Assembly (NCBI GenBank): GCA_903923395.1
Contig: CAIXXM010000124.1
Coordinates: 1-64,000, forward strand
Source: an uncultured Acidobacteriia bacterium
GTDB taxonomy: Bacteria > Acidobacteriota > Terriglobia > Bryobacterales > Bryobacteraceae
Length of the DNA stretch: 64,000 nt
Direction of reading: 5' to 3'
Every line of letters begins with the position of its first letter. The first letter of the stretch is position 1. The translations under genes were made by a program, and so were the position numbers. Below are positions 1-49,625 of this stretch, in pieces. Below the pieces are notes generated by a model. That model was not told the origin of the DNA, did no database searches, and was given only the letters and a program-made list of their open reading frames with translations.

Positions 1-341
1 CGAAGGCTCTGGTCGTCTTTCCCGGCGGCTTCGGGACCATGGACGAACTCTTCGAGATCCTGACCCTGGTGCAGACCCAGAAGTTGAAAAAGCACATCGA
101 GATCATCCTCTACGGCAGAAGTTTCTGGGAGGAGATCCTGAACTTCAAGGCTTTTGTGAAACACGGGATGATCGCGGAGAAGGACCTCGAGTTATTCCAC
201 TTCGCCGATACCCCGGCCGAAGCTCTCGGAATCTTGCAGGGCCGGCTCTCGCACGATACTGCAACGGGCGGCGCGGAGGCTCCGGCAATCTCTCAGACCT
301 TCACTCCGGGCGAAAATACTCCCGCTGATCGTTTACCCTGA
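1..341 (+). CDS. LOG-family protein (lysine decarboxylase-like Rossmann fold), C-terminal part
   Basis: The open frame already runs at base 3, so the gene starts before the window. The visible part opens with VVFPGGFGTMDELFE, which is the PGGxGTxxE signature of LOG proteins (cytokinin riboside 5'-monophosphate phosphoribohydrolase family, TIGR00730). This motif binds the nucleotide phosphate and carries the catalytic glutamate. About 110 residues are visible and the last 30 look like a disordered tail. The exact substrate cannot be told from this part, since bacterial LOG proteins are often annotated only by fold. The next gene follows after one base, so the two may be cotranscribed. Confidence 0.85.
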   Translation, partial: KALVVFPGGFGTMDELFEILTLVQTQKLKKHIEIILYGRSFWEEILNFKAFVKHGMIAEKDLELFHFADTPAEALGILQGRLSHDTATGGAEAPAISQTFTPGENTPADRLP

Positions 342-27315: not shown

Positions 27316-28356
27316 TTACCACCGGCGGTAATGATACCGGGGTCCAACATAGAGCCCCACCGTCGGACCGTAGTAATATCCGGGGCCGTAGTAAGGATAC
27401 GGGCCATACGCCGGACGCACCGGAACAACCGGCCGTGACGTCTGCAGCGTGTGCTGGAAATCCGCCTCGGTCGCATAACGGAAGGCCTGCGGCGCCCGCT
27501 CCGTGGAGATGGTCACCGGTGCCGTAATCCGGAACGTCAACAGCGTCTCCGGCCCAACAATCGTGGGCTGGCCACGTGTCAGCAAGACACCAATCAGACT
27601 GGCGGCAGCACCCGCACCGGCTCCGATTCCCGCTCCGCGTCCACCATCTGCCGCCGCACCAATGGCAGCGCCGATACCGGTCGTGGCACCCACCGTCGCA
27701 ACGTCATTGCCAACCGTGGTCCTGCCATTGCGGGTCATGAGATCAGACTGTATGGCGACCTGCGTGCCATCGGCCAGCGTCAAATCCGTCAACTGCAGAC
27801 CCAGCTTGGACGTTCCAGAGATCCGTCCGGCCTTCTGCGCGTCACTGACGCGTCCGGCAAGCGTCTCACCGGTCCGCGCCACCACCACGCCATCCACAAT
27901 AATCGGCTTGGCCAGCGTGGCAGAGAAAGCGTCGCCCTGCTGGTTCCGGTCAGAAGACAACGGATTGTTGAGCCGGACCGTGATGAACGTCCCGGGCTTC
28001 AACGTCAGTTGTGCAGGCACCGGAGCCGCCGCCATCTGGTTCTGCTGCGGATAAGGATACTGCTGTTGCTGCGGAGCACCCTGCGCACCACCCTGCGGGA
28101 ACGACGTCGGATAGACCGGTCCCTGCGGATACGCGTTGCCCTGCGCGGTCTGGTCGCCTTCGATAACCGCAGCCTGCGGCGCACCAGCGGGTACCGTCTC
28201 ATCCGGCCCGCTCTGCGTCTGCGCCACCGGAGCAGGAGGCGGATCCGTTACCTTCCGCCAGCCCGTGTTCTGCGCTGAAGCTGCTCCTGTTACAGCGGCC
28301 AACCCCATGGCCGCCAAAATCACCCGTTTTGTAATCGTAGAAGTTGTTTTGATCAT
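27316..28356 (-). CDS. Secreted protein with glycine-zipper segment, unknown function
   Basis: The 346-residue protein has a signal peptide ending near ASAQ at 27-30 and a Gln/Pro-rich linker to about 115. A beta-rich domain follows with GTFITVRLNNPLSSDRNQQG, a pattern widely found in acidobacterial secreted proteins. Next comes a glycine-zipper segment near 220-265 that could insert in a membrane, and a Tyr/Pro/Gly-rich tail. I chose the ATG with GGAAGGAAG upstream; a longer frame to the right is unlikely to be translated. It probably forms part of the envelope. The function is unknown. Confidence 0.75.
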   Translation of the reverse strand: MIKTTSTITKRVILAAMGLAAVTGAASAQNTGWRKVTDPPPAPVAQTQSGPDETVPAGAPQAAVIEGDQTAQGNAYPQGPVYPTSFPQGGAQGAPQQQQYPYPQQNQMAAAPVPAQLTLKPGTFITVRLNNPLSSDRNQQGDAFSATLAKPIIVDGVVVARTGETLAGRVSDAQKAGRISGTSKLGLQLTDLTLADGTQVAIQSDLMTRNGRTTVGNDVATVGATTGIGAAIGAAADGGRGAGIGAGAGAAASLIGVLLTRGQPTIVGPETLLTFRITAPVTISTERAPQAFRYATEADFQHTLQTSRPVVPVRPAYGPYPYYGPGYYYGPTVGLYVGPRYHYRRW

Positions 28357-28461
28357 GTTCTTGATCTTCCTTCCCCTCTTCGCCACACCACTATGCACGA
28401 ACCATGCCAAACGTAAGTGATTGATTCTATTCGCCCGCAATTCGACCGACAGCAGCCACAC

Positions 28462-28481
28462 ACCACCAGCCTGGTGGTTTT
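28462..28481 (+). terminator. Intrinsic terminator-like hairpin facing right, with no gene upstream
   Basis: ACCACCA and TGGTGGT form a perfect seven-base stem over a three-base loop, followed by TTTT on the plus strand. It lies in the leader region of the minus-strand secreted protein, where no plus-strand gene ends. It may stop antisense transcription, or be a chance hairpin. Confidence 0.4.
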
Positions 28482-28537
28482 CGGCCAACCAGCGGACGCA
28501 AATTACCGCCCGCAAAACACTTCCCCGCCCCGTTGAT

Positions 28538-28619
28538 TTATGCACAGTCCATCCACAGGAAAGGAACAGCACACCTCCCCTAAGTGCTTGAAATCAAGGG
28601 ATAAAAAACCTGTGGAAAC
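28538..28619. other. Cluster of DnaA-box-like motifs
   Basis: TTATGCACA at 28538 fits the DnaA-box consensus TTWTNCACA in full. CCATCCACA at 28549 has two mismatches. On the other strand GTTTCCACA (28611-28619) has one mismatch. The last two also form an inverted repeat, CCACAGG with CCTGTGG, about 50 bases apart, with an A-rich stretch between. No dnaA, dnaN or gyrB gene is present, so this is not a typical origin neighbourhood. Confidence 0.35.
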
Positions 28620-28644: not shown

Positions 28645-28673
28645 TTGACTGAAATTCACAAAAACGTCATGAT
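28645..28673 (+). promoter_or_regulatory. Sigma-70-like promoter of the candidate structured RNA
   Basis: TTGACT (28645-28650) and CATGAT (28668-28673) match the -35 and -10 boxes at five and four of six positions and are exactly 17 bases apart. The expected start, about seven bases on, falls at 28680-28682, directly at the left arm of the 19-base inverted repeat. Confidence 0.5.
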
Positions 28674-28680
28674 CAGGGTG

Positions 28681-29100
28681 TTCCAAGGGTCACGGAACGA
28701 TAGCCAAAGGGGATGACAAGCGGGCCGGGCTGATCCAGCACGACGCGTGAAATCAAAACTGAAGGCGGGCGAAACCGGAGTCACACAGGTTGCCGCTTTG
28801 ATCCGAACGGTCGCAAGGCCGGGCGGGGAGTGAAACCAGAAGGCGACGGGAACGGCACGCAAGCGAAAGCCAGCGTCGCCGGGAAAAAGCGCTTCGCGGG
28901 AAGCACGGGTGGAGGGCGAAAGCCGGAAACACGGGTCAGCGCGGAACGCCGGAGTACCGCCCCGGGGAGGTCAGTCCGAACCAAGCGGGCGCAAGGGCGA
29001 AAGCCAGGGCGCAGCGCAGATCAGAGAGCGGCCAAACCGAAGGAAGACAACCCCGCAAAGGGCTGCCTCCGATCGTACCGTGACCCTTGGGCATTTTTGT
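28681..29100 (+). ncRNA. Candidate large structured RNA closed by a 19-base inverted repeat
   Basis: The arms at 28683-28701 and 29072-29090 are reverse complements over 19 bases with one mismatch. The right arm is followed by GCATTTTTGTTT, as in an intrinsic terminator. The inside is strongly purine-biased on the plus strand and holds several hairpins with GNRA loops: CGGTC-GCAA-GGCCG at 28808-28821; ACGC-AA-GC-GAAA-GC-CA-GCGT at 28857-28876; GGC-GAAA-GCC at 28915-28924; and GCGC-AAG-GGC-GAAA-GCC-AGG-GCGC at 28989-29012. No frame gives a plausible protein. It lacks the conserved cores of RNase P RNA and tmRNA. A non-autonomous mobile element is the main alternative, but I see no flanking target duplication. 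Confidence 0.5.
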
Positions 29101-29111
29101 TTCCAGCCCCG

Positions 29112-29654
29112 CTACTTCTTGTCCGGCAAAGCCCGGAAATCTGCCTGCGAAATCTCCTTGCCGATGTAAGCCACCTTCCGGAATGGCCACTTTTCACTCA
29201 GGAACTTCCTCGCCGCTGCCAGCAACTCATCTTCAAACCCTTTATCGAACTGTTCCTTGGTGACCCAGATGGTGACCGTCGCATCGTAGCCCTCTTTGCG
29301 GCTCGGGCGGATGTAAACACAGCCGTACTCTTTGGATCCATCCGGGCTGATCGCGGCATAAGTAAACGACTTCCGGTCTTTGAACCGCGCCGCTTCCCCC
29401 TCGGTATCCTTCCGCGCATCGGCCAGAGTGATGTCTTTCGTCGGCCATCTTCCGCCCCCGAAAGTCTTCTGCAGGTGCTCAATGCTGCTCATGTACGCTT
29501 CGTAGTCCTGCTTCGTCAGATCCGGACCCAGCGGCAACAGCTGAAAGTCTTTTGCCTGGTAGGACGCCGGCACCGGAAAATCAGGAGCGACGAAAGGTGT
29601 CTGCGCGAACAGAGAAGTGCTGAAGAGTAGAGCAGCAAGGAATCGCAAAGTCAT
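29112..29654 (-). CDS. GNAT-like acetyltransferase-fold protein with signal peptide
   Basis: The 180-residue product starts with a signal peptide ending near LFAQ at 15-18. The rest resembles a group of GNAT N-acetyltransferases: LTKQDYEAYMSSIEHLQKTFGGGRWP, then ADARKDTEGEAARFKDRKSFTYAAISPDG (beta strand pair), EYGCVYIRPS, and ATVTIWVTKEQF. GNAT enzymes need acetyl-CoA, which is not expected outside the cytoplasm, so an exported member is odd and may have lost catalysis. It is the last gene of the minus-strand M28, aminotransferase, zinc-ribbon set. Residue similarity was judged by eye. Confidence 0.6.
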   Translation of the reverse strand: MTLRFLAALLFSTSLFAQTPFVAPDFPVPASYQAKDFQLLPLGPDLTKQDYEAYMSSIEHLQKTFGGGRWPTKDITLADARKDTEGEAARFKDRKSFTYAAISPDGSKEYGCVYIRPSRKEGYDATVTIWVTKEQFDKGFEDELLAAARKFLSEKWPFRKVAYIGKEISQADFRALPDKK

Positions 29655-30054: not shown

Positions 30055-30918
30055 CTAAGAGACCAGTACGGAGTGCTTCCGCATCTGGATGTCCTCCTGC
30101 AGAAATGTCGCGAACTTGCCGGCAAGCTTCTCCCGCACTCCACTGCCCGCCCCAATGCTGACACCTTCCACTTCCCGCACCGGCAGCAGATCCCGCGTCG
30201 TCGAGGTAATAAACACCTCATCCGCCTTCTGGATCTCCTCCACCGTCAACGTGCCTTCTTCCACATTGCCACCGATTTCGAGCAGCACTTCCCGCGTAAT
30301 TCCCGGCAGACACCCCTCGGCCAGCGCCGGCGTAATCACCCGGTCCCCATACATGGCAAAAACATTCGCCGACGTACACTCCGCCACGCGCCCGTGCTCA
30401 TTCAGCAACAGGACCTCGTCGAACCCCTTCTCCTGCGCCCGCTCCACCCATGTCAGGTTCTGCGACCACGAAAGAATCTTCGCCCGCGTAAAGTCACTGG
30501 CGGCGTAGCGCGCATGCGGCTGCACACTCAAGCGCACACTCTCGCCCCAGTTCTTGAAGTCAGCCGTCAACGCCACCACATCACAGGCGTGACCAGTCGG
30601 CGGACCCTGCCACATGCCACCCGCATTCCGCACAATCACCAGCCGCAGCGTGCAATTCGGCGCACTGTTGGCCGCGGCCAGTTCCATCAGGTCCGCTTCC
30701 ACACGCCCGGAATCAGCCGGCATCGGAATATTCATCAACTGGGCATCGCGCATCATCCGCGCCCAATGCCGCTCCCACGCGAAAAGGTGACCGTCCACCA
30801 CACGCAACGTGCTGAAGACACCCCACCCCGACAGCAACCCCAACTGGCCCGGCGAAAGCAAGGCCTCCGAACTGCCATGTATGCTGCCGTTATGCAAGAC
30901 AAAGGGGTGGATCGCCAT
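30055..30918 (-). CDS. Class IV pyridoxal-phosphate aminotransferase (IlvE / D-amino acid transaminase / PabC fold)
   Basis: The 287-residue protein follows the fold-type IV pattern: HNGSIHGSSEALLSPGQLGLLSGWGVFSTLRV at the start, AKILSWSQNLTWVERAQEKGFDEVLLLNEHG with the PLP lysine, VAECTSANVFAMYGDRVITPALAEGCLPGITR for phosphate binding. Branched-chain aminotransferases, D-amino acid transaminases and aminodeoxychorismate lyases share this layout, and the substrate cannot be fixed here. The length favours an aminodeoxychorismate lyase or D-alanine type over IlvE. It is 14 bases behind the M28 peptidase. Confidence 0.85.
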   Translation of the reverse strand: MAIHPFVLHNGSIHGSSEALLSPGQLGLLSGWGVFSTLRVVDGHLFAWERHWARMMRDAQLMNIPMPADSGRVEADLMELAAANSAPNCTLRLVIVRNAGGMWQGPPTGHACDVVALTADFKNWGESVRLSVQPHARYAASDFTRAKILSWSQNLTWVERAQEKGFDEVLLLNEHGRVAECTSANVFAMYGDRVITPALAEGCLPGITREVLLEIGGNVEEGTLTVEEIQKADEVFITSTTRDLLPVREVEGVSIGAGSGVREKLAGKFATFLQEDIQMRKHSVLVS

Positions 30919-47885: not shown

Positions 47886-49625
47886 ATGGATTTTTCTATA
47901 CGGGAATTGACAGCAGCCTACAAGGCGGGAACTTTGACGCCGGCGGATGTGATCACGGAAGCCTACCGGCGTATTGCGGCGCGCTCCAAAGATCCTGTCT
48001 GGATTACTTTAGCGGCGGAAGAAGTATCACTGGCCAAAGCGGTGGCACTGGGCTCCTATGACCCGAAGTTACCGCTGTATGGCATTCCTTTTGCGGTGAA
48101 AGATAACATTGACGTTGCTGGAATGCCCACAACGGCAGGTTGTCCGGCGTTCCAGTATGAGCCGGCAGACTCAGCCTTTGTGATCGAGAGACTGATCGCG
48201 GCGGGGGCCATCCCCATTGGCAAGACGAACATGGACCAGTTCGCGACGGGCTTGGTGGGAACACGGTCGCCTTACGGAGCCTGTTCGAGCGAGTTCGGTG
48301 AGGACTATATTTCCGGCGGTTCCAGTTCGGGTAGTGCCGTGGCTGTGGCTGCGGAGTTCGTTTCCTTCTCATTGGGCACGGATACAGCAGGCTCAGGCCG
48401 TGTACCTGCGGCGTTCAACAATCTTGTCGGTTTGAAACCAACCCGTGGAGTGTTCTCCGGCAGCGGTCTGGTGCCTGCCTGCCGGACGCTCGATTGTATC
48501 TCCGTATTTACTAACACGGCGGAAGATGCAAGGCGGGTGTTCGAGGTGATGCGCGGTTATGACCCTGCCGATGCCTACTCGCGTCAACCGGGGCAAGCGG
48601 TTGCCTGGCCGAAGAGATTCCGCTTTGGAGTGCCGTCCAAAGATATGCTTCAGTTCTTTGGAGACACCGGTGCCGGGGAACTCTACTGGGCTGCGGTGAG
48701 TAAGTTACAAGAAGCCGGGCATGAATGCGTGGAGGTGGATTACGCGATCTTCCGCGATGCGGCGAACCTGCTTTATTCCGGACCCTGGGTGGCGGAAAGA
48801 TATGCCGCGATTGAGAGCTTTCTGGAGCAGCATGAAGCGGATCTTTATCCCGTCACCGCGAAGATCATTACCGGTGCGCGGAAGATCAGTGCCGCGGACA
48901 CGTTCTCCGCTGTCTATAAACTGGCAGCGCTGGCACGGCGGGCCGAAGCGGAGTGGCAGAAGATGGACGTCCTGCTGTTGCCGACCACAGGCACGATATA
49001 CACCCACGAGCAAGTGGCTGCCGAGCCGGTAGCGCTCAACACCAATCTTGGTTATTACACGAACTTTGTCAATCTGCTGGATTTGGCAGCCATTGCGGTT
49101 CCCGCGGGTTTCCGTGCGAACGGATTGCCCTTTGGGGTGACTTTCATTGCACCGGCGTGGAGTGATGAAGCGCTGCTCGACACAGCACAAAGCTTTCTTG
49201 CTGAAGCCGTGGATACTTACTGTCCTCCCGGTTATGTACCCCTCGCTGTCTGCGGTGCGCATCTCAGCGGCATGCCCTTGAACTGGCAACTGACACAGGC
49301 GGGAGCTTACTTGATTGAAGCGACTGCCACACCGCCCAACTACAAACTCTATGCGCTGGCGGGAACCGTTCCGCCGAAGCCCGGTTTGTTCCGCGCAGAC
49401 GAAGGCGGCGCTGCAATTGAAGTAGAAGTGTGGGCTGTTCCCGAGAGTACTTTCGGACGGTTTGTGGCGAATGTTCCTCCACCGCTGGCGATTGGTTCGT
49501 GCACGCTGCAAAGCGGTCGGACAGTGAAATCATTCGTCTGTGAACCAGCAGGCTTGGCGGGAGCGGAAGATATCACTGCGCTGGGCGGATGGCGGGCTTA
49601 TATCAAGCGAGGCCCTCGTCAATAA
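47886..49625 (+). CDS. atzF: Allophanate hydrolase
   Basis: The 579-residue protein has an amidase-signature domain to about 440 with the catalytic lysine in IPFAVKDNIDVAGMPTTAG and the serine pair in ISGGSSSGSAVAV and DTAGSGRVPAAFNNLVGLKP. The C-terminal domain (about 460-579) is the AtzF-specific extension that completes allophanate breakdown to ammonia and carbon dioxide. It starts two bases after the carboxylase stop, so it is the last step of the same operon. The end overlaps a convergent regulator gene by 23 bases. Confidence 0.92.
   Translation: MDFSIRELTAAYKAGTLTPADVITEAYRRIAARSKDPVWITLAAEEVSLAKAVALGSYDPKLPLYGIPFAVKDNIDVAGMPTTAGCPAFQYEPADSAFVIERLIAAGAIPIGKTNMDQFATGLVGTRSPYGACSSEFGEDYISGGSSSGSAVAVAAEFVSFSLGTDTAGSGRVPAAFNNLVGLKPTRGVFSGSGLVPACRTLDCISVFTNTAEDARRVFEVMRGYDPADAYSRQPGQAVAWPKRFRFGVPSKDMLQFFGDTGAGELYWAAVSKLQEAGHECVEVDYAIFRDAANLLYSGPWVAERYAAIESFLEQHEADLYPVTAKIITGARKISAADTFSAVYKLAALARRAEAEWQKMDVLLLPTTGTIYTHEQVAAEPVALNTNLGYYTNFVNLLDLAAIAVPAGFRANGLPFGVTFIAPAWSDEALLDTAQSFLAEAVDTYCPPGYVPLAVCGAHLSGMPLNWQLTQAGAYLIEATATPPNYKLYALAGTVPPKPGLFRADEGGAAIEVEVWAVPESTFGRFVANVPPPLAIGSCTLQSGRTVKSFVCEPAGLAGAEDITALGGWRAYIKRGPRQ

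Follow-up and report, generated by a model that had tools for sequence, protein, structure and literature searches.

Positions 28680-29099 of the window, i.e. of the whole stretch of 64,000 nucleotides analysed here, are very probably a gene for a large folded RNA from which no protein is made. Judged by sequence comparison, it seems rather likely that this is an autonomous non-coding RNA gene and a shortened, divergent member of an order-level family of ornate RNAs, mostly of about 600 nucleotides, whose full-size members would dimerize by a kissing loop. That the family constitutes a new class of RNAs forming RNA-only homodimers or higher assemblies, at home in the Bryobacteraceae and a sister family and with part of the window's genus lacking the docking hairpin, is a more tentative proposal, to which we give slightly less than even credence.

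Gene structure and predicted fold of the window RNA

The locus comprises the following features:

28611-28618, plus strand: conserved upstream element TGTGGAAA, starting 34 bases before the -35 box; relatives often have TGAGGAAA
28645-28650, plus strand: -35 box TTGACT; TTGAC in 83 of 83 promoter-bearing relatives
28668-28673, plus strand: -10 box CATGAT, 17 bases 3' of the -35 box
28680-29099, plus strand: structured RNA without a match in Rfam, its start predicted from the promoter and its end from the T-run
28683-28701, plus strand: left arm of the closing stem P1, pairing with 29072-29090
28788-28841, plus strand: core hairpin GGUU..CGCUUUGAUCCG-stem-GGGGAGUG..AACC, common to the 16 genus members examined and the family of about 600 nt
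28864-28869, plus strand: GAAA tetraloop with its closing pair, from the MFE fold
28909-28932, plus strand: hairpin GUG-GAG-GGC-GAAA-GCC-..-CAC, from the sequence, its loop in the MFE fold
28989-29012, plus strand: hairpin GCGC-AAG-GGC-GAAA-GCC-AGG-GCGC, of the same plan as 28909-28932, its loop in the MFE fold
29072-29090, plus strand: right arm of P1, 19 nt with one mismatch against the left arm
29094-29098, plus strand: T-run, read from the sequence, with which P1 would make up an intrinsic terminator

The signs on which the original prediction had been built, i.e. TTGACT and CATGAT boxes with a 17-base spacing, a 19-base inverted repeat with one mismatch and a purine-rich interior (purine content of the RNA 0.62), are all found at these positions; the T-run that it had placed straight after the right arm exists as well, though three bases further on and not directly adjoining. 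The claim of at least four GNRA hairpins agrees with the plus-strand MFE fold, which has four such loops (GCAA at 28813-28816; GAAA at 28865-28868, 28918-28921 and 28999-29002), and the two hairpins said to share a plan, with an outer stem, a purine loop and a GAAA-capped inner stem, are those at 28909-28932 and 28989-29012. When 28670-29105 is folded, the plus strand reaches z = -4.09 and is more stable than all 100 shuffles, and the minus strand reaches a weaker z = -3.04, with one of 100 shuffles equally stable. Several open reading frames of at least 60 amino acids overlap the stretch; that it is non-coding, as had been proposed, is argued by its covarying stems and by the lengths of its homologues, which range from 341 to 623 nt among 14 full-length genus members (measured with two bases ahead of TTCCA and 14 past P1).

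Distribution and conservation of the gene

A search for homologues in related genomes had been proposed, and such homologues were found in the genus and in the wider family. BLAST over relatives gave short matches to the two ends of the RNA, and a second query gave fuller ones; covariance models were built for the core (R1), for the 3' module (R2) and for the 5' end of 73 full-length relatives (R3). Within the window's genus, the RNA is present in 17 of 19 genomes, in 14 with both ends located, in G004 and G005 recognized from their start, core and module, and in G014 by R1 and by eye. The raw tally of 16 became 17 when a BLAST match in G013, which by eye resembled protein-coding sequence, was dropped and G014 and G018 were added; no RNA was found in G013 and G017, both of them fragmented assemblies. 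Some members of the genus are a quarter or more shorter than the relatives of about 600 nt.

P1 pairs at 18 of its 19 positions in at least 13 of the 14 genus members, with exchanges including G-C/A-U and C-G/U-A, and position 14 has an A.A or A.G mismatch throughout; these members had been picked by a P1 pattern allowing three mismatches per arm, which somewhat favours pairing, and the count omits G004, G005 and G014. The core hairpin occurs in all 16 genus members examined (a set without G014, which was read later) and, in alignment A2, shows double changes at six of its 16 pairs.

Among 150 genomes of the taxonomic family, which is apparently the Bryobacteraceae, R1 matches 90 at E<=0.5, many of them in other genera at 1e-9 to 1e-14, and R3 matches 106 at E<=0.001, with nothing at this threshold in the other 44. 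When 200 genomes of the order were searched with R1, 79 matched at E<=0.01, every one in the window's family; among 396 genomes of the phylum, R1 found only the window's genome and one doubtful match, and R3 a single match, from the window's family. Both genomes of the sister family (f2) match R3, and at E<=0.001 none of 18 genomes of family f3 and none of four from other families of the class does so. All searches over more than 40 genomes used stricter filters, which lose weak matches. An R1 match of 27.7 bits in a genome of another family (G541) was treated as chance because R3 has no match there, and so was an R3 match in G060 (E 0.08). Of 70 pattern hits, 14 score above 50 bits with R1.

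R3 does not find the window's own copy when the window's genome is searched, which means that this copy has strongly diverged. What links it to the family is the R1 match of its core hairpin (53.3 bits, with R1 trained partly on this very sequence), the R3 matches of G002 and G010 from the same genus, and the promoter and downstream genes that it has in common with the others. R2 misses the window RNA; the strongest hit that it gives in the window, at 47920-47979 and thus outside the RNA, is weak (19.2 bits, E 0.01) and probably due to chance. Elsewhere, a single contig (G094:C66:38406-40191) has two pairs of R1 matches separated by about 1.3 kb; in the stretch inspected, the second pair had no family 5' end ahead of it and is perhaps a partial tandem copy.

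The relatives follow a common plan: they begin with GGUUCCAAGAGGUU and, about 600 nt further on, end with ...UCACUUGGAACC, mostly together with a T-run. In 77 of 100 loci examined, a 5' end could be placed, a promoter being required for it, and in 73 of these a 3' end as well; most of these 73 full-length relatives measure 598-622 nt, including ten bases past P1, at a mean pairwise identity of 0.59. When starts were taken without requiring a promoter, TTGA[CT]-16..18-NANNNY was found at the expected place in 83 of 85 relatives of about 600 nt, as against 0.3% of random 48-mers, with a box spacing of 17 in 71 and of 18 in 12 of the 83; one of the two misses, in L239, is no RNA start, the pattern having matched a second time at another place of that locus. 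The promoter of most genes is of the sigma-70 type. The transcripts of these relatives would start at or just 5' of GGUUCCAAG. The upstream pattern TG[AT][GT]GA[AT]A lies within 80 bases before the -35 box in 66 of 98 regions, compared with 1.7% of random 80-mers, although it was picked by eye from the very sequences in which it was counted; of its 69 listed occurrences, 55 begin at a distance of 33 or 34 bases from -35. This suggests that TGAGGAAA/TGTGGAAA is a shared activator site or UP-like site. At the other end, 66 of the 73 extracted sequences, which end ten bases after the P1 arm, have at least four T in their last 12 bases. Predicted promoter and terminator are thus conserved alongside the RNA, as would be expected of an autonomous gene, and homologues with a promoter and terminator of their own support the initial reading as a complete non-coding RNA gene. 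That reading had been of an undescribed RNA of about 410 bases: its autonomy is supported and no Rfam match was found, and its size is to be revised in that it appears to be the shortened form of a family of about 600 bases.

Consensus structure and covariation

The compensatory changes that had been proposed as a check are abundant, according to a covariation test of our own that is modelled on R-scape and is not R-scape itself. In 70 of the 73 full-length rows (three below 560 nt were dropped beforehand), significant covariation is seen at 47 of 184 consensus pairs when they are tested against a null of 60 simulations, in which alignments with independent columns were generated on the tree. 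As the consensus structure had been predicted from the same alignment, it is the controls that carry weight: in six of them, with the pairs slid by -3 to +3 columns, none of 180-184 pairs was significant, and in a structure-blind test of all column pairs seven passed, all seven within the structure. An earlier run with 12 null alignments had given five significant pairs over all column pairs, again all in the structure. The consensus has 30 helices of at least three pairs, and nothing convincing emerged when pseudoknots were sought among non-nested covarying pairs. At several hundred nucleotides and with such extensive covarying structure, the relatives of about 600 nt have the features by which large ornate RNAs are recognized.

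A palindromic loop and possible dimerization

The loop of the 3'-proximal hairpin is a strict 6-nt palindrome in 63 of the 73 relatives, always in the same columns. GCAUGC accounts for 57 rows, UCAUGA and GCUAGC for two each, and GUAUAC and GCGCGC for one each; a further four rows become self-complementary once G.U is allowed, which leaves six without self-complementarity. The next best palindrome position in the RNA reaches 27%. Both f2 members have, by eye, GCUAGC at this position, and ten of 14 genus members have a GCAUGC loop; because the heuristic choice of hairpin erred in several family rows, the family count was anchored on alignment columns, with only the genus count being heuristic. 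The following tests were made after the palindrome had already caught the eye: in a simulation with independent columns, the observed four alternative kinds were reached in none of 5000 runs, by row count the same simulation gave P=0.026, and 19.6% of shuffled loops hold a self-complementary 6-mer (G.U allowed).

Since a 6-nt loop palindrome cannot pair with itself within one molecule and since the palindromes are swapped as a whole, these data point to pairing between two copies, and full-size members may thus dock as two copies by a symmetric kissing loop. The family therefore carries the evolutionary sign of intermolecular self-pairing that is looked for in large ornate homo-oligomeric RNAs. 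The window's own RNA has no such self-pairing loop, i.e. it and three other short members (G009, G011 and G018) are without a palindromic hairpin near the 3' end, and no palindromic loop appears in its MFE fold.

One alternative, unlikely in our view yet deserving serious attention, is that the RNA is a protein-bound scaffold or a ribozyme, with recurrent modules binding copies of one protein and a palindrome that is incidental or binds a partner RNA. It would fit the core hairpin, with its 17 invariant columns in 16 sequences, as well as the recurrence of a UGAUCC-stem-GGGGAG module, as 59 of 73 relatives have GGGGAG at least three times together with several TGATCC-like words. Five kinds of palindrome at one place, however, argue for self-pairing and not for a fixed partner, and no protein gene is constant beside the RNA in 87 loci, the commonest neighbour cluster adjoining 32 of them (flanks are short in many). 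The latter makes a dedicated partner in the same operon less likely, while a partner encoded at another place in the genome would be compatible with it. It is very unlikely that the palindrome is instead a DNA recognition site unrelated to RNA dimers: GCATGC is indeed an ordinary DNA palindrome, but it is found in a hairpin loop above a stem that varies while staying paired, and four other palindromes take its place in relatives, a range of sites that one sequence-specific protein could scarcely accept.

Neighbouring genes and inheritance

The five neighbours in the window are a Zn-ribbon-like gene (below the Pfam cut-off), an aminotransferase gene, a peptidase gene and two genes without a match; no HNH-nuclease gene is among them, and two scanned fragments of relatives' neighbours gave no match. 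For the aminotransferase gene (30055-30918, Pfam Aminotran_4), 31 of 86 other loci have a homologue next to the RNA, eight of these loci in the window's genus, and in 30 of the 31 this homologue lies downstream and convergent, as in the window; with longer flanks, five of 14 genus loci had no such aminotransferase. The Zn-ribbon-like gene belongs to a cluster covering 25 loci. These counts are lower bounds, as many loci hold only about 1 kb downstream. Upstream, neighbour clusters recur on the same strand in 29 loci and on the minus strand in 16, which may mark two ancient loci; some of the clusters obtained in this comparison of neighbours are, however, antisense frames of one gene.

Comparison of the loci indicates that the RNA gene is vertically inherited. 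We regard it as highly improbable that the RNA is a repeated or mobile element, or that it serves phages or a mobile system of the HEARO or omegaRNA kind as an accessory RNA. Such a reading could account for the two or three matches seen in 26 of the 106 R3-positive family genomes; part of these matches may be modules inside one RNA or duplicates made in assembly. Instead of the many dispersed copies that the original prediction had named as a sign against it, the window's genome holds a single copy (in a search of this genome, all remaining matches were 17 and 20 nt only), and downstream neighbours are common to many loci. The Rfam scans gave no match to HEARO. Viral contigs had no exact match to one form of the RNA's 5' end, and phages none to the relative L070. 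A plasmid origin was rejected as well: L070 shares no more than a 35-nt stretch (E 4e-3) with two plasmid records, both from one species, and this stretch adjoins a Tn3 transposase gene in one case and falls within an integrase gene in the second. Family genomes such as G019, G062, G101 and G108 have two RNA copies on different contigs.

The least probable of the readings weighed here, in which an adjacent gene would have the stretch as its cis-regulatory leader or as a long 3' element, would suit an RNA located between genes, but both flanking genes in the window (27316-28572 and 29112-29654) are on the minus strand while the RNA's promoter and P1 terminator read plus, and the commonest downstream cluster is convergent with the RNA in 31 of its 32 proteins.

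Proposed assembly and its significance

In the reading that we prefer, the RNA would act as a folded RNA object and not as a guide, messenger or riboswitch. The kissing loop of the 3'-proximal hairpin would join two RNA copies, perhaps as part of a larger assembly, with GNRA loops and purine internal loops making packing contacts; the window copy, lacking the palindromic hairpin, would stay monomeric or dock otherwise. Its cellular role can be guessed at, as a scaffold or as a means of sequestering or storage, regulated via the upstream element. If this is true, short species without the docking hairpin would constitute a natural loss-of-assembly series. Large ornate bacterial RNAs are few, and the present family would add a class that is widespread in one bacterial family, offering strong covariation, a defined promoter and a testable idea of self-assembly, along with natural variants that keep the docking loop, change it or are without it.

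Comparison with known RNAs

Rfam 15, which we take to include OLE, GOLLD, ROOL, HEARO, raiA, tmRNA, SRP RNA and introns, gave no match at the gathering cut-off in the window or in 16 genus loci (the RNA being present in 15 of them); at relaxed thresholds, there was nothing within the window RNA (to E 5) and nothing in the loci of ten relatives. The cmscan comparison proposed at the outset thus matched no known family to the window RNA. RNase P RNA and 6S RNA are widespread autonomous bacterial RNAs, and the genome's only reported match to each lies elsewhere, for RNase P RNA (RF00010) on contig C153 with 274.5 bits and for 6S RNA (RF00013) on contig C159 with 32.4 bits, below the cut-off. A stretch of the latter contig (G000:C159:4966-5159, L245), over which the whole model is covered, is possibly the 6S RNA of the window's genome.

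Acido-1, Acido-Lenti-1 and 'Solibacter-1' are given as candidate RNAs of Acidobacteria in the part of Weinberg 2010 (PMC2864571) used here. Acido-1 and Acido-Lenti-1 have Rfam accessions, and the present RNA did not match them. 'Solibacter-1', which the same part of that paper (PMC2864571) gives without an Rfam entry, marks '?' as an RNA and lists for Solibacter usitatus only, was compared by description only and could be identical with the present family. Among the matches listed for literature on RNAs of Acidobacteria, Bryobacteraceae and Solibacter and on GOLLD and ROOL, no paper seemed, from its accessible portions, to describe the family. With 'Solibacter-1' compared in this way, the family would appear to be categorically new as a sequence family.

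As described in the portions of PMC12286853 consulted, OLE, ROOL and GOLLD are large ornate bacterial RNAs that form RNA-only homo-oligomers and whose functions remain poorly understood, raiA was found to be monomeric, and the raiA motif and HEARO are discussed as structured bacterial RNAs. Unlike all of these, the present RNA has no match to an Rfam covariance model. It differs from OLE, ROOL and GOLLD also in that, among the genomes searched, convincing matches are confined to the window's family and a sister family, and in having chromosomal neighbours common to many loci, with no phage match found. Whereas raiA is a monomer according to that portion of the source (PMC12286853), most members of the present family have a self-complementary loop. 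In the same portions (PMC12286853), Kretsch and colleagues argue for intermolecular kissing loops in OLE and GOLLD from palindromes in loops that are exchanged in their entirety, and the present family resembles these two in having loop palindromes that swap as a whole. With OLE, ROOL and GOLLD, as far as they are covered there, it has in common a large ornate structure with extensive covariation, its dimer being predicted from sequence; as a kind of object, it would thus take its place beside the large ornate RNAs.
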